Origin: a virus | IMG/VR virus record: IMGVR_UViG_3300022074_000302 | Coordinates: 1-27,319 of that record | Direction: 5' to 3' (one strand) | Length of the DNA stretch: 27,319 nt | Shown here: positions 1 through 18,984 of the stretch, in pieces | Layout of the letters: every line of letters begins with the position of its first letter | Numbering within the stretch: position 1 is the first letter of the stretch | Made by a program: the position numbers and the translations under genes | Notes under the pieces: model-generated | Databases searched by the model: none | What the model was told of the DNA's origin: nothing | The model's input: the letters and a program-made list of their open reading frames with translations, nothing else

Positions 1-491
1 TCTGGATATACAGGGAACTGTATCAAAAACACTTGACAGCAGAGGAGTTAGCCGCTAGAATACTAGAAGCGGAACAACTAGACCCTCTACCTCACTACAC
101 GGTCCTCGACTCGTCCTGTTGGAACAAAACGGGTTTCGGGCCGTCAATTGCAGAAGTTATGATGCGTGAGGGTGTGCGCTGGACTCCATCAGACCGCAAT
201 CGTATTCAGGGAAAGATGGAGATACACCGTCGTCTCGCTGACGATCCCTACACGACGGAGCCACGCCTACGCTTCTTCTCTTCGTGTCAGAACATCGTCA
301 AACAGATTGCAGGCATACCACTCTCCAAGACAAACAGCGAAGACGTAGATACGAAGGCAGAAGACCACGCATACGACGCCCTGCGCTACGGAATGATGAC
401 ACGCATGAGCGGCTACGCTTCGATACATCAGCAACTCAATGCAATCAAGAACCAAGTTCACCAAGTCCAAGACGAAGTATTCGGATACTAG
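1..491 (+). CDS. terL: Large terminase subunit, C-terminal part (5' truncated)
   Basis: The reading frame is open from the left edge of the window (first complete codon at base 3) to the TAG at 489-491, so this is the 3' end of a gene that starts outside the window. About 162 residues are visible. They resemble the RNase H-fold nuclease domain that cuts concatemeric DNA during packaging. A strand ending in VLDSSCW is followed by a long helix-rich segment, and DHAYDALRYGMM near the end fits the last conserved acidic position of the nuclease, as in other phage terminases (family knowledge). The ATPase domain lies upstream and is not seen. The next gene starts 3 bases after the stop, and the portal gene follows further on, the usual order for a packaging module. 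The TTG at 33 is not a plausible start because the frame continues upstream without a stop. The family is fairly sure; the exact terminase subtype is not. Confidence 0.82.
   Translation, partial: WIYRELYQKHLTAEELAARILEAEQLDPLPHYTVLDSSCWNKTGFGPSIAEVMMREGVRWTPSDRNRIQGKMEIHRRLADDPYTTEPRLRFFSSCQNIVKQIAGIPLSKTNSEDVDTKAEDHAYDALRYGMMTRMSGYASIHQQLNAIKNQVHQVQDEVFGY
33..61 (+). promoter_or_regulatory. Candidate sigma70-type promoter inside terL
   Basis: TTGACA at 33-38 is followed, after exactly 17 bases, by TAGAAT at 56-61, an 11 of 12 match to the bacterial consensus. It lies within terminase codons, so chance is possible. It would start transcription upstream of the recombinase-like gene at 495. 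The spacer equals that of the other promoter candidates in this window. Confidence 0.3.
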
Positions 492-494
492 ATA

Positions 495-2492
495 ATGGCA
501 GACACTGACATTTTAAAAACACTAAGTGCGCCAGACAAACTAAAAGTAGCGCAGTTTGTAACGCTACAGAAAACTCTCTTTCCAGATGGAAACATACCGA
601 CGTATGCAGAAATACGTAAGCGCATTGTTGATGGTACAGCTACAGTGGGCGATGCCTTCATTGCTAAGATGTACAACTTGGGTGTTCCTAACAACCCTCT
701 ATTTGAACAGCTAGATGAAACATCAGAGTTTGCAAAAAAGTTTCATAAGGCATTTGGCAAAAAAGTTGTAACAAAAGCCATGACCATGACTGGTCACTCT
801 CAACAGGCTGTTGATCTAGCTAGAGAGGTTGATCTTTCAAGTAATTTCTTAGAGTTGCAGTCGGATGTTCTTGCAGGGACAAGCGACCTTTCACCAAACA
901 AAATTAATAAACTCATCAGCCCACTGTCTAGCTCCTTTCAAAACGTGAAAGTAAATAAGTTAGCTAGCGCGGCAGCCGGTGCTGGAGATAGAAAACTTTT
1001 TAAGGGAGCCATACCTCCTGAAGTTCTTGAGACTGTTCTAAAACAAGTAGCTATCATACGCGAAAAAGAAGGAGCTATAGCTGCGGATGCAGTTCTTGGT
1101 TCACTGCTTGGTATGCGAGGTACGGACCTAACTGAAACGCGCACAACTATAGAGTTAGCCACACGGACAACGCCTCAACGTCCAGTCTACGATCCTGAAA
1201 CAGGAACAATTGTAAATCCCGTAGAACCGGGAGAAGCAGGAAAGGGCCTAAAAGGAATTGGAGACGACCGTCCACTTGGTCCTCTTCTTTCAAGAGTTTA
1301 CCTAGACAGGTATAATGCTGCAGGTCCAACCGGAGAACTGTTTCCGGATATGGACACAAAAAAAATCAATGCTCTAATCAACAAGTATGTAACTCCTGCT
1401 CTTTCTGATGATGTAAAAGCAAAAGCAAAAAAAAGAAATGCTTCTGGAAAGTTCTCGCTAGACTATACCGATTTACGACGTATTACTGCATCGTCTATTG
1501 CTAATGGTTTGGGTAATACAGAGGCTGCAGATGCAATTCTTGCACACACTGGATCAGAAAAAGAACTTGACGCAAAAATCTTACGTACGTTTTACATCGA
1601 CGTAGAAGATGTAGGAAAACTAGAACAACGCGGCCTAGTATTTTCAATGTTTGAGAAGATGATGGCTGATGCTCTTGGGGCTGAAAGCGGGGGACAACTT
1701 GCTGCATCTCTAGGATATGACTTTGTTGATTTTGAAGCTGATTATTCCGATCTTGAGTCGAAGATAACTATGGATGCACCAACAGGCACGGACAGTCGTC
1801 CGGCGGCTGTGGCTCCAACTGCAGAACAGGCAGCAGTAAATGCAGAGTTATCTGAGGGTAGGGGAAAACTAACCGCTGCAGAATTAGATGCTCAAGCTGC
1901 AGCTAAAGAAAGCGAAGCACTAGATAGACGAATAGCAACAGCAGAAAAGAAAGCAGCAGCGCAAGAGGCCGGAGTATTACCGGGAGATAAGCCCGCTGTT
2001 AAAAGTGAAGATGTAAAACCAAACGCTGCTGATGATATTTCAGACGAAGTAAAAGGCAAAATGAGTGGGCTAGGACTTGACGATTTCTTTGGATTTACAA
2101 AGAAGGGTTTGCTTCCAGCTATACTAGGAGGAGGTGCTGTATACTCCTTTATTGAAGACGCTGGAGCCGTAGTACGAGACGTGGCTATTGAGGGTGTTGC
2201 CACGGCAGCTAAACTTGGTCCCAAAGTTGGCGGTGCTTTGCCCATGATACTATCATCATCTCCTGCGTACGCACCGGGCCTAGAGCCAAAGCCTACGATG
2301 GCAGAAGACCCATATCCCGGACAGCCGGAGTATCAATCGTTTCGTCAGATGAGGGACATAGCTATGGAGCCTGCCATTGACGAAAGCGTAAACGATATGG
2401 AACGAATGGCACTTGAAGATTCGGGCGGATTTATTACACGAAACAGGGAACCTGAAGTCTCCCCTGCCCCTAAAGAAGGCTTCATCAGGTAA
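495..2492 (+). CDS. Tyrosine-recombinase-like domain protein with hydrophobic C-terminal extension
   Basis: A 665-residue protein. Residues about 165-390 read like the catalytic domain of tyrosine recombinases. LLGMRGTDL places R208 at the box I arginine. TDLRR places R328 at the box II arginine. AILAHTG places H351 exactly 23 residues after R328, the usual family spacing. RTFYIDV offers Y367 as the nucleophile. K250 or K253 in GKGLKG could be the hairpin lysine. Two things are odd: the box II histidine is replaced by T325, and H351 to Y367 is 16 residues where 9 is common. Residues 1-165 are mostly helical and could correspond to a core-binding region. Residues 430-540 are Ala/Glu-rich, and 545-600 contain Gly/Ala-rich hydrophobic stretches (PAILGGGAVYSFI). 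The gene lies between terL and portal and is visibly AT-richer than the portal gene. It could be an active recombinase, a virion-carried DNA-binding protein, or a structural protein on a recycled fold. The fold call is moderately sure; function is unknown. Confidence 0.62.
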   Translation: MADTDILKTLSAPDKLKVAQFVTLQKTLFPDGNIPTYAEIRKRIVDGTATVGDAFIAKMYNLGVPNNPLFEQLDETSEFAKKFHKAFGKKVVTKAMTMTGHSQQAVDLAREVDLSSNFLELQSDVLAGTSDLSPNKINKLISPLSSSFQNVKVNKLASAAAGAGDRKLFKGAIPPEVLETVLKQVAIIREKEGAIAADAVLGSLLGMRGTDLTETRTTIELATRTTPQRPVYDPETGTIVNPVEPGEAGKGLKGIGDDRPLGPLLSRVYLDRYNAAGPTGELFPDMDTKKINALINKYVTPALSDDVKAKAKKRNASGKFSLDYTDLRRITASSIANGLGNTEAADAILAHTGSEKELDAKILRTFYIDVEDVGKLEQRGLVFSMFEKMMADALGAESGGQLAASLGYDFVDFEADYSDLESKITMDAPTGTDSRPAAVAPTAEQAAVNAELSEGRGKLTAAELDAQAAAKESEALDRRIATAEKKAAAQEAGVLPGDKPAVKSEDVKPNAADDISDEVKGKMSGLGLDDFFGFTKKGLLPAILGGGAVYSFIEDAGAVVRDVAIEGVATAAKLGPKVGGALPMILSSSPAYAPGLEPKPTMAEDPYPGQPEYQSFRQMRDIAMEPAIDESVNDMERMALEDSGGFITRNREPEVSPAPKEGFIR

Positions 2493-2743: not shown

Positions 2744-4864
2744 ATGGCCGATAATTTCCTAGAACCGGACGACGAGCAGGCGATTCCGATTGCCAGTCCT
2801 GATGAGCAGATGCCCGGACTTGCGGGCCACATCAAGGCACGGTTTGACGACGCAGAGAACGGACGGTTTTCGTACGAGCAGCGATGGCTACAGGCGTACA
2901 AAAACTTTCGTGGCATCTATGATACTACGACACAGTACCGTGACAGCGAAAAGTCGAGGGTGTTCATCAAGATCACCAAGACCAAAGTACTTGCTGCGTA
3001 CGGACAGATTATCGACATATTGTTTGCTAACAAGAAGTTTCCCCTCGTTGTTGAGTCCACTCCGATGCCAGAAGGCATTGAGGAGTTTGCTCATATGCGT
3101 ACGCCTGCTGACGAGCTTTCGCAGTTGGGAAGTGACCCCTACGGTTTTCCGGGAGATGGTCGCGAGTTAGCTCCGGGGGCGATGCAAGCCAACGAGCCGC
3201 ACCGTCTAGGCTCCTATGGTAAAGACTTCGGTGACACGATCCTTGCGGGTAAGTCTCGCGTGGGTGAGCCACAATTCGAACCTGCAAAAGAGCAGGCACG
3301 AAAGATGGAGAAGTGCATCCACGATCAGTTGCTCGACACAAATGCCGTTAGTGAGTTTCGCAAAGCAATCTTTGAGTCGTCCCTGTTCGGCACAGGCGTC
3401 GTCAAGGGGCCGTTCAACTTTCACAAGCGTGTTCACAACTGGAAGATGGATGACGATGGTGAGCGTGTTTACGATCCCTACGAGCGGATGGTGCCACGTA
3501 TCGAACACGTATCGGTATGGGACTTTCACCCTGACCCTGCAGCCACATCCGTAGAGGACTGCGAGTACGTTATCGAACGTCACCGCATGAACCGACAGCA
3601 GCTTCGTAGCCTGATAATGCGTCCACACTTCGACGCTCAAGCAATCGAAGAGTGCCTTGCAAAAGGACCGAACTACGAAGACAAGTATTACGAAGACACG
3701 ATCCGTGAAGACGAAACCGAACCTCACATCTCTGAGAACCGTTACGAAGTCCTAGAGTATTGGGGTGTTCTCGACTCGAAGTTTGCAAAGGAAGTCGGCC
3801 TAGAGAACGCAGAACTCATGTCTGAGTTTGACCAGATGCAAGTCAACATCTGGGTGTGCGGTACACTCGTACTACGCTGTGTGTTGAACCCCTTCACACC
3901 TGCACGTATTCCCTACCAAGCCTTCCCGTTCGAAATCAACCCCTATCAAATCTGGGGCGTTGGCGTAGCAGAGAACATGGAAGACGCACAGATGCTGATG
4001 AACGGTCACGTTCGTATGGCAATCGACAACCTCGCTCTCGCTGGCAACCTTGTCTTTGATGTCGATGAGGCATCGTTGGTCCCCGGACAGAACATGGACA
4101 TCTTCCCCGGCAAGATATTCCGTCGTCAGTCGGGCGTCACCGGCACGGCAATCAACGGCCTCAAGTTTCCGAATACGGCACCTGAAAACATACAGATGTA
4201 TCAGATTAGCCGACAGCTTGCGGACGAAGAGACGGGCATCCCATCGATCACACACGGCCAGACAGGAGTCACCGGCACCGGACGAACTGCAGCAGGCTTG
4301 TCTATGCTGATGGGCAGTGCAGGCTTGTCGATGAAGACGGTCATCAAAAACATCGACGACCACCTACTCAAGCCAATCGGTGAAGCATTCTTTCAGTGGA
4401 ACATGCAGTTCGGAGAGAACGTCGAGGATGTCACGGGCGACCTAGAGATCAAGCCACGTGGTGTAGCAGCCGTGATGCAAAAGGAAGTACGCACACAACG
4501 ACTCACCTCACTCTTGCAAACCGTAGCCAACCCTATGCTGGCTCCGTTTGTAAAGTTGCCAAACCTGATGCGCGAACTCGCTATTGCACAAGACATCGAT
4601 CCTGACAGCTTAGTGAACGATGTCAACGAGGCACAAGTCTACGCACAGATGTTACAAGGAATGATGCAAGATGCTCAACAAGCAGCAGGCCCAGAAGCTA
4701 GCCCCTCTCCTCTACAGCAAGGAATGGCCCCAAATGGAGGAGTACCTAGTGGACCTCCGGGAGTCGATGATTCGGGCCGTGGTAACGGCACAATCGGAGT
4801 CGGAACTGCGCCAAGTGCAGGGGAAGCTGGGTTTACTGGAAATGCTCCTCAAGTTGAAGGATAG
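2744..4864 (+). CDS. Portal (head-tail connector) protein
   Basis: A 706-residue protein, about the length of large podovirus portals (P22 portal is 725). Portals form the dodecameric ring at one capsid vertex through which DNA enters and leaves. The N-terminal 100 residues have the helical pattern of a portal clip/stem region (RWLQAYKNFRG, KTKVLAAYGQIIDILF). The middle contains a stretch I associate with marine podovirus portals (SSLFGTGVVKGPF, VWDFHPDPAATSVEDC), followed by segments such as NPYQIWGVGVAENMEDAQ and the helical TAAGLSMLMGSAGLSMK. Residues about 640-706 are Pro/Gly/Ser-rich and predicted to be disordered; this stretch is also read in another frame by the gene at 4671. Flanking terminase, scaffold and capsid genes support the call. 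Confidence 0.85.
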   Translation: MADNFLEPDDEQAIPIASPDEQMPGLAGHIKARFDDAENGRFSYEQRWLQAYKNFRGIYDTTTQYRDSEKSRVFIKITKTKVLAAYGQIIDILFANKKFPLVVESTPMPEGIEEFAHMRTPADELSQLGSDPYGFPGDGRELAPGAMQANEPHRLGSYGKDFGDTILAGKSRVGEPQFEPAKEQARKMEKCIHDQLLDTNAVSEFRKAIFESSLFGTGVVKGPFNFHKRVHNWKMDDDGERVYDPYERMVPRIEHVSVWDFHPDPAATSVEDCEYVIERHRMNRQQLRSLIMRPHFDAQAIEECLAKGPNYEDKYYEDTIREDETEPHISENRYEVLEYWGVLDSKFAKEVGLENAELMSEFDQMQVNIWVCGTLVLRCVLNPFTPARIPYQAFPFEINPYQIWGVGVAENMEDAQMLMNGHVRMAIDNLALAGNLVFDVDEASLVPGQNMDIFPGKIFRRQSGVTGTAINGLKFPNTAPENIQMYQISRQLADEETGIPSITHGQTGVTGTGRTAAGLSMLMGSAGLSMKTVIKNIDDHLLKPIGEAFFQWNMQFGENVEDVTGDLEIKPRGVAAVMQKEVRTQRLTSLLQTVANPMLAPFVKLPNLMRELAIAQDIDPDSLVNDVNEAQVYAQMLQGMMQDAQQAAGPEASPSPLQQGMAPNGGVPSGPPGVDDSGRGNGTIGVGTAPSAGEAGFTGNAPQVEG

Positions 4865-4895
4865 TCACGAGGCAGTGGTTAAGAACGATGGATAA
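4671..4895 (+). CDS. Small helical protein overprinted on the portal 3' end
   Basis: A 74-residue protein in a different frame from the portal. It shares about 194 bases with it and then overlaps the next gene by 8 bases. An AAGGA at 4656-4660, 10 bases before the ATG, can serve as ribosome-binding site. The protein looks folded rather than accidental: it is helix-rich with regular hydrophobic spacing (MEEYLVDLRESMIRAVV, ELRQVQGKLGLLEMLLKL). The ELRQVQGKL segment resembles short proteins found beside portal or scaffold genes in podoviruses (family memory, not searched). The portal frame over the same bases is low-complexity and unconstrained, as expected where a second gene is overprinted. 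Role unknown; head assembly is the contextual guess. Confidence 0.72.
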   Translation: MLNKQQAQKLAPLLYSKEWPQMEEYLVDLRESMIRAVVTAQSESELRQVQGKLGLLEMLLKLKDSHEAVVKNDG

Positions 4896-7644
4896 GATCA
4901 CACAACCTAAAATGTCAAACGGTGGAACAGTGACAGAACAAGTCTACGGTCAAACACGAAGCACTCCGTACAGCATGGACGAATACCTACGCGGTAGTAT
5001 GTACGACTTTCCGGGCATCAACGTAGATGTTGCTCCAGCAGCGGGAGATGATTCTACTACTAATCCTGCACCCCCTGCACCAAGTGTTTTAAATCCTGTC
5101 GGGACAGGGGACGGTGGCGCATCTAGCCCATTTACCAGCTATTCTGTAGCAACAGGCTTACCATCATTCGGATACGAAGACATAGACCCCGTAGACTTCA
5201 TAAGCAAGTTTGAAAAGACTTCTCCGAAAGCAAAGGGCCGCAGTGACAACGCATTCTTAAACTTTGGCATCAATCAACTAGACCCGAAGAACATACCCCT
5301 AGCTGTTGCCTCACTGGCAATACCGGGTGCGGCTGGGTTTGGTATAGCTGCAGCAGAACTAAACCGTCGATCACAAAAGAAAACCGCCGACGCAATTATG
5401 GCTACAGGCAAGACAGGCGGTTCTATGTATACGTTTCAGGGACAGACAGTTCACCGTCTTCCCGGAACTAGGCAGTTCAACGGAACGCTAGGAAACATGA
5501 CTAGCGCAGAACACTATCGCTTCGACGAGATTAGACGCGGTTTTATTCCGGGCACGATGAAAGAAACAAAATCACAGGTTGGAAGTTTAGATGCTGCTAC
5601 GGGGCAGAGTAATCAATACATACGCACAGGCAAAAACACCATAGCTTACGACGCAGGTTTTGGTGCAGGCATGGATGCGTTCGGTACTGTTCACAGCGCA
5701 TCCGGTCCGCAGGGTGGTAGTGCGAGTGCGGCAACGGCTCTTCGTGAACAACTCTACCGTGAAAACATGAATCGTTTGGGCTTAACAATAGACGAAAGCA
5801 GGGTAGCTAGTGAAGCCCTATCTATGAAGCAAGCTCTCGACGCAGGTATGAAGAACAGTAGATTTCACGGCGGATTTTTTCATAAGGCAAGCAATCTGAG
5901 TGACGAGGACTACGCAAACGCTCAAACCCTGTCACAACAGATTATTCAGCAGCACATCAGAACGAACACTGCAGCCGGTAAAGCGCAGGCTCAAGCAGCA
6001 GAGGCGAAAGCCGCTGAAGCAAGTCAACGTATGCGAGAACAAGAAGCCCAACGACAGGCTATACTGCAACAGTATGATGAAGAGGATAGCGGAGGTACGC
6101 CGACCCAGTATTCAGTTCAGGATATAGAAGACGATATCATGGACAGCTATGGCGGTTCTACAGATGCAACAGACTATTCATTTGACTTTGGATTCCGTAA
6201 GGGTGGTCGTGTCGGCATGCAGATGGGCGGAACCGCTCCACAGGCTGCACCAGCGGGCTTCGTAGAGCGTCCGCCGTCACAGGTATCCGAAGCGGCTACT
6301 GTGGCTGACGACAAGCCTATGAGCGTCCCAGAGGGCACGTTTGTCATCAACGCTGCAGCCGTCGAGTTTGCTGGTGAGGGTGACATTGCCAAGATGCTCA
6401 AGGATGCCTACGCAAAAGCTGGTAAACAGGGATCAGCAGCACCATCTAAAGAACAGATTGACGTAGCCGTATCTCGTGGCGAGGTTATTGTGCCCCCAGC
6501 GATTGCCAAGATCATTGGCTATGACCGACTCGAAAAGATCAATAATCGCGGCAAGAAAGAAACGAAGCAACGCATCAAAGAGAACGGACAGGGTCGTAGG
6601 GGTGCTGCAGGAGGTGGATTCCTCACTAGAAAAAAGCTGGCAAACGGCGGTGAAGCCCAAGACATCTATGAAGACAAAATCATAATAGATGAAGTTCGCA
6701 GGAAGATGGATGACCTCTTAAAGAATCTGCCGGACGATGTAAAAGTAGATAGCAGGTATTTCGGCGATGACTATCCTGCCAACCGGGATTTCCACAGGCA
6801 GCTAGCCATTCTAAATGATGCTGATCCTGACGCATTTAAGATGCGGGCGTTTTCTTCAGAGCAACAGGGTTTAATAAATGTACCTCAGACTCCAACGCTT
6901 TTTAATCTCTACGCTATGGCGGAAGAGATTGCACACTTAGAGGCTTCTAAATACAGACGCCCAGAAACTGAAACTGTTAAAACTTTACGGGCTGATGAAC
7001 AGTCTCTTTTCGCCTCTATTCCCGGCACTGAAGGGGATATGAGGAAACACTACGGAGCATACGAGCAGGGGGGATTCCTCTACACTCCTAGTCAAATAGC
7101 GAGTATGTCCGACAAGGAAAAGGCTGAGATACAAGATACCTACGGAGTTCCGGCGGATAAAGTAAGAAATACTTTCAGCTACCCTGATTATTTTGAGCTA
7201 GAACAAGATTATCTAGAAGAAATGAGAGCAAAGAGCATCGCGTTTCAGACGGTGTTTGGTAAACTAGATAAAACAAGTAGCAAAAACGTAAAAGAAAACA
7301 CAAAAACCGGAAGAGCTATAGACTTGGCAGAATCATCGTACGGAGAGGATTTTGCCAAGTACATTCTAGCTACTGCTAGTCCGACGCTTCAAACCGCAAT
7401 ATTCCACAAACATCCTGAACTCAGAGAACGATATTTCGACGATCAGGGACGTTTTAAGAAGCGGAATATACAGCCTGATGCCGACTTTAGGATGGTCATG
7501 GAGGCTGAAGACGAAGAGGCTAGAAAGCGTTCCCTCAAAGAATTTAAAGAAGCTGACGACAGAAACATCGTTGTAAAAAATCTCACCAGTCCTCGAAAGT
7601 CTACTTTTATAGAGGGCTACGGACGAATTCCAGTTTCTGAATAA
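4888..7644 (+). CDS. Large multidomain virion-region protein with Gly-Gly-rich central module
   Basis: A 918-residue protein between portal and scaffold. The N-terminal 110 residues are Pro/Ser/Gly-rich and probably disordered. Residues 125-165 hold an Ala-rich hydrophobic stretch (LAVASLAIPGAAGFGIAAAE). Residues 350-395 form an Ala/Gln/Glu-rich probable coiled coil. Residues 437-610 contain KGGRVGMQMGG, a module I associate with marine phage proteins (EGTFVINAAAVEFAG, RGEVIVPPAIAKIIGYDRL) and a second Gly-rich patch (RRGAAGGGFLTRKKLANGG). The C-terminal third is AT-richer and includes YAMAEEIAHLEA at 676-687 and EEMRAKS at 777-783. This spacing is reminiscent of a zinc-metallopeptidase fold, but the first histidine of HExxH is replaced by E679, so activity is doubtful. 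Candidate roles are ejection protein, head-maturation factor or minor head protein. I cannot assign one. Confidence 0.6.
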   Translation: MDKITQPKMSNGGTVTEQVYGQTRSTPYSMDEYLRGSMYDFPGINVDVAPAAGDDSTTNPAPPAPSVLNPVGTGDGGASSPFTSYSVATGLPSFGYEDIDPVDFISKFEKTSPKAKGRSDNAFLNFGINQLDPKNIPLAVASLAIPGAAGFGIAAAELNRRSQKKTADAIMATGKTGGSMYTFQGQTVHRLPGTRQFNGTLGNMTSAEHYRFDEIRRGFIPGTMKETKSQVGSLDAATGQSNQYIRTGKNTIAYDAGFGAGMDAFGTVHSASGPQGGSASAATALREQLYRENMNRLGLTIDESRVASEALSMKQALDAGMKNSRFHGGFFHKASNLSDEDYANAQTLSQQIIQQHIRTNTAAGKAQAQAAEAKAAEASQRMREQEAQRQAILQQYDEEDSGGTPTQYSVQDIEDDIMDSYGGSTDATDYSFDFGFRKGGRVGMQMGGTAPQAAPAGFVERPPSQVSEAATVADDKPMSVPEGTFVINAAAVEFAGEGDIAKMLKDAYAKAGKQGSAAPSKEQIDVAVSRGEVIVPPAIAKIIGYDRLEKINNRGKKETKQRIKENGQGRRGAAGGGFLTRKKLANGGEAQDIYEDKIIIDEVRRKMDDLLKNLPDDVKVDSRYFGDDYPANRDFHRQLAILNDADPDAFKMRAFSSEQQGLINVPQTPTLFNLYAMAEEIAHLEASKYRRPETETVKTLRADEQSLFASIPGTEGDMRKHYGAYEQGGFLYTPSQIASMSDKEKAEIQDTYGVPADKVRNTFSYPDYFELEQDYLEEMRAKSIAFQTVFGKLDKTSSKNVKENTKTGRAIDLAESSYGEDFAKYILATASPTLQTAIFHKHPELRERYFDDQGRFKKRNIQPDADFRMVMEAEDEEARKRSLKEFKEADDRNIVVKNLTSPRKSTFIEGYGRIPVSE

Positions 7645-10199: not shown

Positions 10200-10889
10200 A
10201 TGAATTACATCACAAGTAATATTCCCTACTTCAAGGCTTGGGTACGCAGAGAATACACAACCAACCACGACAGATACCACGGTGAGTACCTACACGCTAT
10301 GGTAATCGGTGTAACTACTCTACCAATGCGTACCCTATCATTTCAAGTCTTGTTTACAGGATGTGAAGACGAAGAAGACAACGTACATGGTGGGGCTATG
10401 TGGGCACGGATGCCCCTTACTGCCCTAGTGGGAGACACACCCCTAGATGACTGGCCTGAACCTATTCCTACTCATTTGGCACAGCCGTGGGACTGTCAGT
10501 CACATCACCACTCAGTATTTGTACTCAACAGGGCTACACCCTGCCCGTGGTACGCAAAGATAGACGGGGAGTTCTACCCTGCTAAGTACTACTTCACCGT
10601 AGACTACACGGACACAGAAGTAGCAGACGATCCAGCGCAACACAAGCAGAGTCATGTACTCGAACTCTTAGATGCTGGTGACTGGACGGGCAACATGGTC
10701 GCCCTACCCAACAATCGGGTACGAGTAACAAACCCTGCTTGGTTCGTAACAGGTGAGGGTGCGCCGGACTTCGCTCCTAGTCAGTGGGTCCATCATTCCA
10801 AACAAGACCCGAACTACGTCAGTGATACGGCACGGGTATTCAACAACCTCTATGCGGAGAGTGACAATGAAGAAGATGATGAAGAGTAA
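10200..10889 (+). CDS. Conserved-type phage protein of unknown function (229 aa)
   Basis: The ATG at 10200 is chosen over an in-frame GTG at 10194 because the ribosome-binding site TGGAGG (10189-10194) would overlap the GTG. The protein has no membrane segment and no catalytic motif I recognise. It is rich in Trp, Tyr and His (KAWVRREYTTNHDRYHGEY, QPWDCQSHHHSVFVLN, CPWYAKIDGEFYPAKYYF), which suggests a compact folded beta-rich core, and it ends in an acidic tail (SDNEEDDEE). I have the impression of similar proteins in marine phage genomes but know no role. It is the first gene after the head terminator and overlaps the next gene by 23 bases. Confidence 0.75.
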   Translation: MNYITSNIPYFKAWVRREYTTNHDRYHGEYLHAMVIGVTTLPMRTLSFQVLFTGCEDEEDNVHGGAMWARMPLTALVGDTPLDDWPEPIPTHLAQPWDCQSHHHSVFVLNRATPCPWYAKIDGEFYPAKYYFTVDYTDTEVADDPAQHKQSHVLELLDAGDWTGNMVALPNNRVRVTNPAWFVTGEGAPDFAPSQWVHHSKQDPNYVSDTARVFNNLYAESDNEEDDEE

Positions 10890-11100
10890 AGGCATGAAGC
10901 GTGGTGGCAAAACCAAAGCCAAAGGTATGGCTAAGGGTGGCATGCGCGGTGGCCGTAGAATGCCCATGATGAAAAAGGGCGGCAAGGCTATGAAGGCGAA
11001 GGGTATGGCTAAAGGCGGCAAGCGTGGTGGGGCAATGACTCTTGCATCGATTCGCTCTGCTGCTAAAGCAAAGGGCTACAAACTGGTAAAGTTGGCGTAG
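10867..11100 (+). CDS. Lys/Met/Gly-repeat basic small protein
   Basis: A 77-residue protein starting at the ATG inside the end of the previous gene. The first 60 residues are almost entirely Lys, Arg, Gly and Met, built on a repeated KAKGMAKGG unit (residues 17-25 and 43-51) with KKGG and RGG spacers. The last 20 residues (MTLASIRSAAKAKGYKLVK) look like a short helical anchor. The net charge is strongly positive and compatible with nucleic-acid or capsid-surface binding. It is the first of five consecutive basic genes. A protamine-like or scaffold-like role is only a hypothesis. A longer upstream start at 10753 in the same frame is unlikely, since it would lie deep in the preceding gene. Confidence 0.7.
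   Translation: MKKMMKSKGMKRGGKTKAKGMAKGGMRGGRRMPMMKKGGKAMKAKGMAKGGKRGGAMTLASIRSAAKAKGYKLVKLA
10915..11031 (+). repeat. Direct repeat coding KAKGMAKGG units
   Basis: Two 39-base units, 10915-10953 and 10993-11031, encode the same 13-residue plan (KAKGMAKGG, one variable residue, RGG), separated by 39 bases of similar composition. They are in frame within the basic protein gene. Confidence 0.65.
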
Positions 11101-11104
11101 TCAT

Positions 11105-11254
11105 ATGGCACGTCGTGGACTATACGCAAACATAGCAGCCAAGAAACGTCGCATCAAAGCCGGTAGCGGTGAGAAGATGCGTACTGCAGGGAGCAAAGGC
11201 GCACCTAGTAAAGCCAACTTCCGTCGTGCTGCACAGACTGCAAGGAAAAAGTAA
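11105..11254 (+). CDS. Basic small protein, GLYANI type (49 aa)
   Basis: A 49-residue gene between two basic genes, 4 bases after the previous stop and 1 base before the next start. The protein begins MARRGLYANIAAKKRRI, continues KAGSGEKMRTAGSKGAPSK, and ends in a basic helix (FRRAAQTARKK). I associate the pattern GLYANI..K...I.AGSGEKMR..GSKGAP with short proteins scattered through marine phages and other aquatic viruses; this is memory, not a search. Function is unknown. The strongly positive charge and the cluster setting suggest nucleic-acid association. Confidence 0.75.
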   Translation: MARRGLYANIAAKKRRIKAGSGEKMRTAGSKGAPSKANFRRAAQTARKK

Positions 11255-11255
11255 C

Positions 11256-11435
11256 ATGGCAAGGAAGGCACCACCCAAGCCCAAGAAGAAGTCGAAGGGC
11301 GCAACTCCTAAAAACAAGGCACTCTACTCCCGTGTGAAAGCAGAGGCAAAGAGAAAATTCGATGTCTATCCAAGTGCTTACGCAAATGCTTGGCTTGTTA
11401 GGACGTATAAGAAGCGTGGCGGGACGTACGCATAA
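11256..11435 (+). CDS. Basic small protein with FDVYPSAYANAWLV motif (59 aa)
   Basis: A 59-residue protein whose start ATG lies just after the previous stop. The N-terminal 20 residues are Lys/Pro-rich and disordered (PPKPKKKSKG). The rest forms a small conserved-looking domain: LYSRVKAEAKRKF, then DVYPSAYANAWLVRTYKKRGG. I know this 'VxPSAYAxxxLV' motif from small basic proteins of marine phages and giant viruses, where no function is established to my knowledge. Its stop overlaps the next ATG by one base (TAATG), which implies translational coupling. Confidence 0.75.
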   Translation: MARKAPPKPKKKSKGATPKNKALYSRVKAEAKRKFDVYPSAYANAWLVRTYKKRGGTYA

Positions 11436-11683
11436 TGGCTAAACCGAAGGGCGGCTTAACAAAGTGGTTCAAGGAAGACTGGCGGGATGTAAAGACCGGC
11501 AAGAAGTGTGGTCGTTCCGGATCAGAAAAGAAGAAGCGGCCCTACCCTGCGTGTAGGCCAGCCAAAGTTGCTAAACGTATCACAAAGAAAGAAGCGGCCA
11601 AGAAGACCGGACCACGCAGAGTGAACTGGTCTGTTACTGCTTCGGGCAGAAAAAGGAAGAAGGCCAGTGGCAAGAAAGCCTGA
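11435..11683 (+). CDS. DUF5872-like basic protein
   Basis: An 82-residue, Lys/Arg-rich protein. The N-terminal half (GGLTKWFKEDWRDVKTGKKCGR, followed by RPYPACRPAKVA) fits the pattern I remember as DUF5872, a small domain in aquatic phages and large DNA viruses. Two cysteines (in KKCGR and PACRP) could bind a metal or stack in a compact fold. The C-terminal half is a basic tail (TKKEAAKKTG, RKRKKASGKK). It is coupled to the preceding gene by a one-base overlap and overlaps the next by 17 bases. Function unknown. The family name is from memory and needs a profile search. Confidence 0.72.
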   Translation: MAKPKGGLTKWFKEDWRDVKTGKKCGRSGSEKKKRPYPACRPAKVAKRITKKEAAKKTGPRRVNWSVTASGRKRKKASGKKA

Positions 11684-11951
11684 CAACATGCCCGCCCGCA
11701 ACAAGAAGAACTTTCGTCCTACCAAGAAGGGTGCGGGTATGACGAAGGCTGGGGTAGCGGCATACCGTAAGAAGAACCCCGGTAGCAAACTAAAGACTGC
11801 AGTCACTGGCAAGGTGAAGCCCGGAAGCAAGGCAGCAAAACGTCGCAAGTCGTTTTGTGCGCGTTCTGCAGGACAGATGAAGAAGTTCCCAAAGGCGGCA
11901 AAGAATCCGAATAGCCGTCTACGTCAAGCACGGAAGAGGTGGAAATGTTAA
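11667..11951 (+). CDS. Basic protein with conserved CARSAGQMKKFP region
   Basis: A 94-residue protein. A GTG at 11667 has AGGAAGAAGG just upstream; an ATG at 11688 (MPARNKK) is an alternative start. It carries a well-defined pattern: AGMTKAGVAAYRKKNPGSKL, then KRRKSFCARSAGQMKKFPKA, then PNSRLRQARKRWKC. I recall this as a small domain of unknown function, probably DUF6321, in cyanophages and related viruses. The two cysteines and regular arginines suggest a folded nucleic-acid-binding or structural protein. It overlaps the holin gene by 7 bases. Function unknown. Confidence 0.72.
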   Translation: MARKPDNMPARNKKNFRPTKKGAGMTKAGVAAYRKKNPGSKLKTAVTGKVKPGSKAAKRRKSFCARSAGQMKKFPKAAKNPNSRLRQARKRWKC

Positions 11952-17094: not shown

Positions 17095-18984
17095 ATGGGT
17101 GCGACCTATACCAGACAATCATCCTACACTGACGGCGATACCATCACCGCTGCTCACACCAACGATGAATTCAATCAGATACTAGCTGCCTTCGCCGCCA
17201 GCACAGGACACACACACGACGGCACCGCCGCAGAGGGGGGTCCGATTACCAAGCTGCTTGGCAACACCCTCACATTCGGTGCGGCGACAGCGGGCACGGA
17301 TATCACAATCACTTTCGACGGTGAGTCGAATGACGGTGTACTCAAGTGGATGGAAGACGAGGACTACTTCGAGTTCTCTGACGACATCTTAGTTGCCAGC
17401 ACAGAGAGGCTGCAGTTTCGTGACACGGCTATTTACATCCACTCAAGCGCGGACGGACAGCTTGACCTCATAGCCGACACAGAGATTCAGATTGCTGCGA
17501 CTACCGTAGACATCAACGGTAATGTAGATATATCAGGCACACTGACAATCGGCAGTGCGGGTATATCTGAGGCAGAACTTGAGATACTCGATGGTGCGAC
17601 GGTCACCACAACAGAAATAAACATCATGGATGGTGACACATCCGCATCCGCTACCACTGTAGTCGATGCTGACCGTGTCGTGTTCAACGATGCTGGAACT
17701 ATGAAGCAGGTGGCGGTCACAGACTTAGCCGCCTATTTTGATGACGAAATCACGGCGATGCCGAACCTCGTTACCACTGCAGCTACGACGGTGGGGGCAC
17801 TCAACTCAGGTTCGATCACGTCCGGCTTCGGCACCATCGACACAGGATCGTCAACGATCACAACGACGGGCCTCATCACAGGTGGCTCTCTCGACATCGA
17901 CGACGTTCTCATCAACGGCTCGACTATCGGTCACACAGACGACACAGACCTGATGACAGTTGCGAGTGGCTTACTCACTGTAGCCGGTGAAGTCTCCATG
18001 ACTACGCTCGACATAGGTGGTACGAACGTCACATCGACGGCAGCAGAACTGAACATCCTAGATGGCGTAACCGCTACTGCTGCCGAACTCAACTACAGCG
18101 ACACGGGTGCCTCTGTGGGCACAGTGGTTGCAAGCAAAGTCGTAACCGTAGACTCGAACAAAGACGTAGCTAGCTTCCGCAACATCACCCTCACGGGGGA
18201 ACTCGACGCAGGATCACTCGACGTATCCGGTGACGCAGACATCGACGGCACCCTAGAGGCTGATGCGATTACGGTCAACGGCACAGCACTCAACACAGTT
18301 ATCGCAGGGGTGACAGTGGCGAATGCTACCCTAGCAGCTACCACCACTGTTACGGACAGCACAGCAAACACCAACTTCCCTGTCGTATTCCACGATGAGT
18401 CGAACGCACTCTTGGATGATACGGGTGCCCTGCGCTACAACCCAAGCACAGGCGAACTCCTAGTTCCGAAGCTGACTGTAGCGGGCACGACAACCACCGT
18501 AGACACAGTGACGATGAATGCAGAGAATGCTATTATCTTCGAGGGTGCTACGGCTGACTCACACGAGACTACACTCACCATCGTAGACCCGACAGCAGAC
18601 CGTACGATCAACTTGCCCAACCAGTCAGGCACCCTGCCTGTCTTAGCTGCAGCAAGCAACACAGCGATCACGTCTACGCCCGACGAACTGAACATACTCG
18701 ACGGGGCCACCGTGGTCGTAGGCGAGATCAACGCTCTCGACTTGGGTTCGACAGCAGTCGGCACGGCTATCGCATCGAAGGCAGTCATACTCGACTCGAA
18801 CAAGGACTACACAGGTATCCGCAACTTCACCATCACTGGTGAGTTGGATGCCGGTTCACTGGACATCAGCGGAGATGCTGATATCGACGGCACCCTCGAA
18901 GCAGACGCTATCACAGTCAACGGTGCCACTCTCAACTCAGTAATTGCAGACGAGGCGACAGCCCTTGCAATTGCTCTGGGCTAA
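17095..18984 (+). CDS. Tail fibre with ELNILDG-type repeats
   Basis: A 629-residue protein. The first 60 residues (DGDTITAAHTNDEFNQILAA, GHTHDGTAAEGG) look like a virion-attachment region. The rest is low in charge variety, with Thr/Ala/Asp/Ile-rich strands typical of a trimeric beta-helical shaft. Repeat elements of the form AELEILDGATVTTTEINIMDG, AELNILDGVTATAAELNY and DELNILDGATVVVGEINALD recur at about residues 160, 315 and 525. A 64-residue unit is duplicated (341-404 and 555-618). The protein ends abruptly after the last repeat (ATALAIALG) with no globular tip, so receptor binding probably rests with the genes that follow. A promoter begins 2 bases after the stop. Confidence 0.8.
   Translation: MGATYTRQSSYTDGDTITAAHTNDEFNQILAAFAASTGHTHDGTAAEGGPITKLLGNTLTFGAATAGTDITITFDGESNDGVLKWMEDEDYFEFSDDILVASTERLQFRDTAIYIHSSADGQLDLIADTEIQIAATTVDINGNVDISGTLTIGSAGISEAELEILDGATVTTTEINIMDGDTSASATTVVDADRVVFNDAGTMKQVAVTDLAAYFDDEITAMPNLVTTAATTVGALNSGSITSGFGTIDTGSSTITTTGLITGGSLDIDDVLINGSTIGHTDDTDLMTVASGLLTVAGEVSMTTLDIGGTNVTSTAAELNILDGVTATAAELNYSDTGASVGTVVASKVVTVDSNKDVASFRNITLTGELDAGSLDVSGDADIDGTLEADAITVNGTALNTVIAGVTVANATLAATTTVTDSTANTNFPVVFHDESNALLDDTGALRYNPSTGELLVPKLTVAGTTTTVDTVTMNAENAIIFEGATADSHETTLTIVDPTADRTINLPNQSGTLPVLAAASNTAITSTPDELNILDGATVVVGEINALDLGSTAVGTAIASKAVILDSNKDYTGIRNFTITGELDAGSLDISGDADIDGTLEADAITVNGATLNSVIADEATALAIALG
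18115..18306 (+). repeat. Fibre repeat unit A (64 codons)
   Basis: First copy of a 192-base in-frame unit whose second copy is at 18757-18948. Its core, residues 368-396 (GELDAGSLDVSGDADIDG onward), matches copy B at 28 of 29 residues but at only 8 of 29 codons. Confidence 0.85.
18757..18948 (+). repeat. Fibre repeat unit B (64 codons)
   Basis: Second copy of the unit at 18115, with identical length and no insertion or deletion. Core residues are 582-610. In the core, 20 of the 21 codon differences from unit A are synonymous. Confidence 0.85.

Follow-up and report, generated by a model that had tools for sequence, protein, structure and literature searches.

The familiar roles of tyrosine recombinases are those of integrase, transposase and dimer resolvase, each beside its own site. 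Here a gene for a predicted enzyme of this class, which we call X, is fixed in the head operon of a clade of uncultured marine bacterial viruses, yet between phages over 98% identical in the flanking genes its sequence changes wholly while its predicted active site is preserved. The internal head proteins of T4 are exchangeable packaged phage proteins, and X resembles them in two ways: it is exchanged as a cassette at one fixed locus among the head genes, and it carries a short, recurring peptide at its terminus. However, X has a conserved enzyme active site, and its packaging is putative. X is similar to the Xer/Int-type recombinases (XerA, 4a8e; XerD, 1a0p; Tn1549 Int, 6en0) in profile homology and in the predicted fold of its catalytic core, but differs from them in that it lacks the histidine of the HxxR motif, carries either histidine or arginine at the second histidine position, has a long C-terminal tail with a terminal motif, and lies between terL and portal. 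The first HxxR histidine is likewise absent from the archaeal integrases of the SSV1 type (R..KxxR..Y) and the pNOB8 type (R..YxxR..Y) (PMC8371274), and SSV1 Int was among the weaker matches of the X family profile. In contrast to these, X belongs to bacterial podoviruses and has a varied residue in place of that histidine, and any attP within the gene is hypothetical. Tyrosine recombinases are also found in a related phage group, as the integrases of HMO-2011 and CRP-1/2/3 (PMC9038755, PMC6918029), but the int genes of HMO-2011-type phages lie upstream of the replication module (PMC9038755), whereas X is hot-swapped within the head operon. We found no description of a terL-X-portal locus in the open-access literature.

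Our window, the whole stretch of DNA analysed, is a virus record of 27,319 bases from a marine podovirus distantly related to HMO-2011, and its portal is at most 53% identical to the portals of cultured phages such as HTVC115P, HMO-2011 and the CRP phages. X starts 4 nt past the terL stop (stop at 491), and the locus has the following features.

3..491, + strand: 3' part of terL (phrog_5653, 0.0004), homologous to the full-length terL of relatives.
495..2492, + strand: X, 665 aa, predicted divergent tyrosine recombinase, hot-swapped, between terL and portal.
495..989, + strand: N-terminal helical region of X (residues 1-165), with AF2 helices of middling confidence.
1002..1694, + strand: catalytic domain of X (about residues 170-400).
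1707..2489, + strand: C-terminal extension of X (residues 405-665), in the AF2 model a helix at 443-491 and otherwise mostly disordered.
2475..2489, + strand: C-terminal peptide of X, EGFIR, an instance of the family motif [GSN]F[ILMVA] and a candidate packaging signal.
2507-2734, + strand: ORF of 75 aa, directly after X and ahead of portal.
2744-4864, + strand: portal protein (SU10_portal PF23899, 3.3e-24; phrog_332, 3.2e-82).
4888-7644: gene Y, after portal; a conserved central module (AGFVERPP..PEGTFVINAAAVEFAG..GGFLTRKK) lies within hypervariable sequence.

Judging from the model, residues 1-165 of X probably form a core-binding domain; within this region T50 is kept in 57/60 homologues. 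The window X is without a 132-aa N-terminal module that is found in its close relatives L003 (2756-3150) and L015, and the same module also precedes other catalytic types (L018, L083). The C-terminal extension is the most divergent part of X within types.

The first-pass annotation had remarked on the odd position between terminase and portal, and had named a search for the same gene beside terL in other phage genomes as a check. This position is a property of the whole clade. Among loci gathered by portal similarity and counted where both terL and portal were covered, one long ORF of 537-806 aa lay between the two genes in 78/78, starting 0-5 nt after terL in 77 of them. The 75-aa ORF stood behind X in all 78 and had no match in the five loci of cultured relatives (L009-L013). 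When the scan was repeated from a divergent portal of this clade, X again lay between terL and portal in 52/52 loci, a set that shares many contigs with the first and is not fully independent of it, while X was present in 0/67 loci gathered with the portal of HTVC115P, from a related clade. When X itself was the query, the scans returned no copy outside the terL-portal locus. Most X loci are metagenomic fragments, and no genome among them is seen whole.

The window X protein on its own matched no family in Pfam, PHROGs or the PDB, so that annotation misses such genes, and a single-protein search against 50,697 phage genomes gave nothing useful. One match to DUF1039 (E 0.013) fell under the cut-off, had no support and was set aside. 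Family members fared better: PF00589 (Phage_integrase) was matched by 28/60, with a best value of 1e-6, and the phrog_1 integrase family by 31/60, matches that mostly lie below the curated cut-off. A profile of the 60 sequences reached XerA (7.9e-10), Tn1549 Int and XerD in the PDB with the catalytic residues R, R and Y aligned; the 60-sequence profile alone succeeded, and profiles A2, A6 and A7 did not reach PDB recombinases. In hhalign the window subfamily was linked at 96% and E 2.4e-9 to subfamily L083, which is more canonical, and the residues R, R, H and Y matched between the two; no significant alignment was obtained between the window subfamily and group A7.

Structure prediction had also been named beforehand as a check. 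An AF2 model from 3 sequences was uninformative (pLDDT 45.6), whereas the 60-sequence model was confident over most of the catalytic core (pLDDT 85-95), with low confidence at residues 351-371. The top matches of this model among PDB and viral structures were recombinases, at modest E-values (best PDB E 0.09). Taken together with the residue conservation described below, the family profiles bear out the identity first read from the window, and homology of X to the tyrosine recombinases appears almost certain. X is, on this evidence, a divergent tyrosine recombinase without the HxxR histidine.

The first-pass annotation had also listed R208, R328, H351 and Y367 in named sequence contexts, with 23 residues from R328 to H351. 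All are present as described, and the positions of the putative active site are given here with their conservation.

1116..1118, + strand: R208, box I arginine; R in 60/60, and in 94/97 with further sequences.
1251..1253, + strand: K253, possible catalytic lysine of the beta2-beta3 hairpin; 51/60 have K and 5 have R.
1467..1469, + strand: T325, at the HxxR histidine position; never His across the X family.
1476..1478, + strand: R328, box II arginine; R in 60/60, and in 97/97 with further sequences.
1545..1547, + strand: H351, at the His/Trp position; of 60 sequences, 31 have H and 29 have R.
1593..1595, + strand: Y367, presumed nucleophile; Y in 60/60, and in 96/97 with further sequences.

Taken alone, the bare R-R-H-Y signature is weak evidence: the pattern R-(80..160)-R-22-H-(7..17)-Y occurred in 21/279 control ORFs (>=300 aa) and in 45/2000 shuffles of the window protein. 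A stricter pattern that included motif context was found in 0 controls, 0 shuffles and 14/69 homologues. Conservation is what lifts the signature above chance, since in 60 positional homologues with a mean column identity of about 15% the only invariant columns are M1, R208, R328 and Y367; on this ground a chance occurrence of the motif was rejected. In 37 additional unique homologues R328 was kept in 37/37, Y367 in 36/37 and R208 in 34/37, the exceptions being confined to four sequences, some of them apparently misaligned, and all four residues are kept in the relatives L007, L008, L017 and L018, whose cores are 41-75% identical.

Other features of the site depart from the textbook arrangement. 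The position of the HxxR histidine holds T, S, Y, K, G and others in the family, and the spacing of 16 from H351 to Y367 is longer than usual for tyrosine recombinases. Half of the family carries arginine at column 351, where recombinases carry His or Trp, and the division between H and R is a single, ancient split on the core tree. The register of K253 is uncertain; K250, two residues closer to the classical GKG motif, is less conserved. As accepted subgroups of tyrosine recombinases are also without the first HxxR histidine (PMC8371274, PMC8138268), we did not treat its loss as excluding. Given that this histidine is missing and that arginine takes the second histidine position in half of the family, activity is not certain, but we consider it probable that X is catalytically active.

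The most informative property of X is the way in which it varies, which the first-pass annotation had no means of seeing in the window. Between phages whose portals are 97-99.7% identical, X can be 13-15% identical: L003 and L022 share 99.7% of portal, 98.8% of terL and 14% of X; L035 and L036 share 98.7%, 99.7% and 14.7%, respectively; and the window and L019 share 97.5%, 98.1% and 13.6%. In several pairs the DNA identity extends a few bases into X and returns at or near its stop codon, while other pairs have the C-terminal part of X in common. The DNA flanking alleles that are 14% identical is itself 95-98% identical. X falls into 19 core (catalytic) types, with at least 38 changes of type on the portal tree, and exchange also takes place separately for its N-terminal module, its catalytic part and its tail. 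Within types the catalytic domain has a dN/dS of 0.01-0.21, indicative of purifying selection, where dS was computable and with some dS values near saturation; selection is strongest in this domain. Because of this purifying selection, the types are distinct, maintained genes rather than decaying ones. By these comparisons X is a tyrosine recombinase variant that keeps one locus in the head operon and undergoes unusually strong allelic exchange there. Since it is swapped wholesale between near-identical viruses with its active site intact, X is probably a working enzyme whose target differs from virus to virus, and the swapping points to strong selection on the choice of target.

Based on these observations, we propose that X is a catalytically intact enzyme of a divergent tyrosine recombinase subfamily, made late beside the head proteins. 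Through Y367 it would cut and rejoin DNA at a specific site, which may lie in the host chromosome, in the DNA of competing elements or within the X ORF. Given that the DNA-recognising domains are replaced without change in the neighbouring phage DNA, the site would not be in the adjacent backbone, an argument limited to that adjacent stretch. X is probably expressed together with the head proteins, to judge from its operon position, and this late synthesis and the recurring C-terminal motif suggest that X would be built into the particle and enter the next cell with the DNA. The motif [GSN]F[ILMVA] occurs within the last 15 residues of 64/76 X proteins versus 21/267 other ORFs; the neighbouring protein Y has similar motifs, as does the portal close to its C-terminus, and in relatives Y carries swappable cell-wall hydrolase domains (Hydrolase_2 or Pesticin). 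Given the head operon, the recurring motif and this neighbour, it is plausible, as was first suggested, that X is virion-associated, although the motif could serve something besides packaging. A shared X type is weakly associated with a shared N-terminus of Y (odds ratio 4.6, p 0.0014; the pairs are not independent). Frequency-dependent selection acting on an exchangeable choice of target, whether through occupied sites or through rival elements, would account for the variety of X alleles.

We regard X as most likely a recombinase that is made late, may be carried in the virion and has an exchangeable specificity. The complete mechanism, in which a late head-operon recombinase has its target outside the adjacent backbone and is delivered by the particle, has in our judgement slightly less than an even chance of being correct. 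A fuller version, which we consider unlikely, is put forward tentatively: X may be a virion-delivered, polymorphic site-specific recombinase, an exchangeable effector that is packaged via its C-terminal peptide and, once inside the cell, recombines or breaks DNA of the host or of competitors, its many specificities being kept by frequency-dependent selection in phages that otherwise hardly differ.

Another reading, which we consider unlikely but the best of the alternatives, is that X is a phage integrase that moved into the head operon, with alleles that integrate the phage at different host sites and an attP placed either inside the X ORF, which is the SSV1 arrangement, or at some other point of the genome. 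Exchange of integrases among related phages is common, and X was the sole PF00589 match in ten related contigs (33-47 kb), matched in two of them in a search that was not exhaustive. HMO-2011-type relatives carry integrases, and one of these phages, CRP-3, integrates into tRNA-Met (PMC6918029). However, the relatives' int lies upstream of the replication module (PMC9038755), whereas X directly follows terL in all but one of the 78 loci, and at 537-806 aa it has a long tail. Moreover, the replaced segment runs almost precisely from the start codon of X to its stop codon, and flanking attachment sites are therefore not exchanged alongside it. Searches of limited reach for other signs of lysogeny were negative: there was no tRNA-like attP in the X loci, the 20 proteins considered from one 47-kb relative included no recognisable repressor or excisionase, and no prophage with X or portal was found in 84,980 species genomes by a method that needs conserved peptides and in a collection where the hosts are probably poorly sampled. 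The earlier remark that no lysogeny gene is visible is true of the window, which is a 27-kb fragment.

That X acts on its own phage DNA, resolving or circularising terminally redundant headful genomes in the manner of Cre in P1, or that it aids packaging, seems to us rather improbable. X adjoins terL, and for phiM6, a distant relative, a terminally redundant genome of the pac/headful type is predicted (PMC6256558), but alleles of X that are 14% identical function with flanking DNA that is 95-98% identical, and lox-like inverted repeats in and near X, numbering 60 against 38 in shuffles, included none that was shared. Since the backbone beside X stays the same when X is swapped, the action on genome ends that was first suggested for it is likewise disfavoured. 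More doubtful still is a topoisomerase IB-like or protelomerase-like enzyme that relaxes DNA or forms hairpin ends: both have the catalytic fold in common with X, the HxxR histidine is absent, and human topoisomerase I was among the weaker structure matches, but every sequence-profile match was a recombinase, as were the best structure matches. Least credible of all is a recombinase fold reused without catalysis, in a structural head protein or, as was first suggested, for DNA binding; the head-operon position, the lost HxxR histidine and the arginine at the second histidine position in half of the family would suit it, but R208, R328 and Y367 outlast near-total divergence in practically all 97 sequences, and the catalytic domain is the part of X under the strongest purifying selection.

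With its types numbering 19 or more in a single genomic setting, X gives a natural set of recombinases in which to ask what phages gain from swapping specificity, and the family could be a source of new site-specific recombinases. Elsewhere in the window, positions 10753-11951 hold a run of small, strongly basic proteins rich in Lys/Arg, one with MAKGG repeats, which are perhaps DNA-condensing virion proteins, and positions 17095-18984 encode a probable tail-fibre-like protein with repeated GDADIDGTLEADAITVNG-type segments. A related 47-kb contig (L101) has a C-5 cytosine methylase upstream of terL (3570-4739), and also encodes DNA polymerase A, a DnaB-type helicase and a B12-dependent ribonucleotide reductase.
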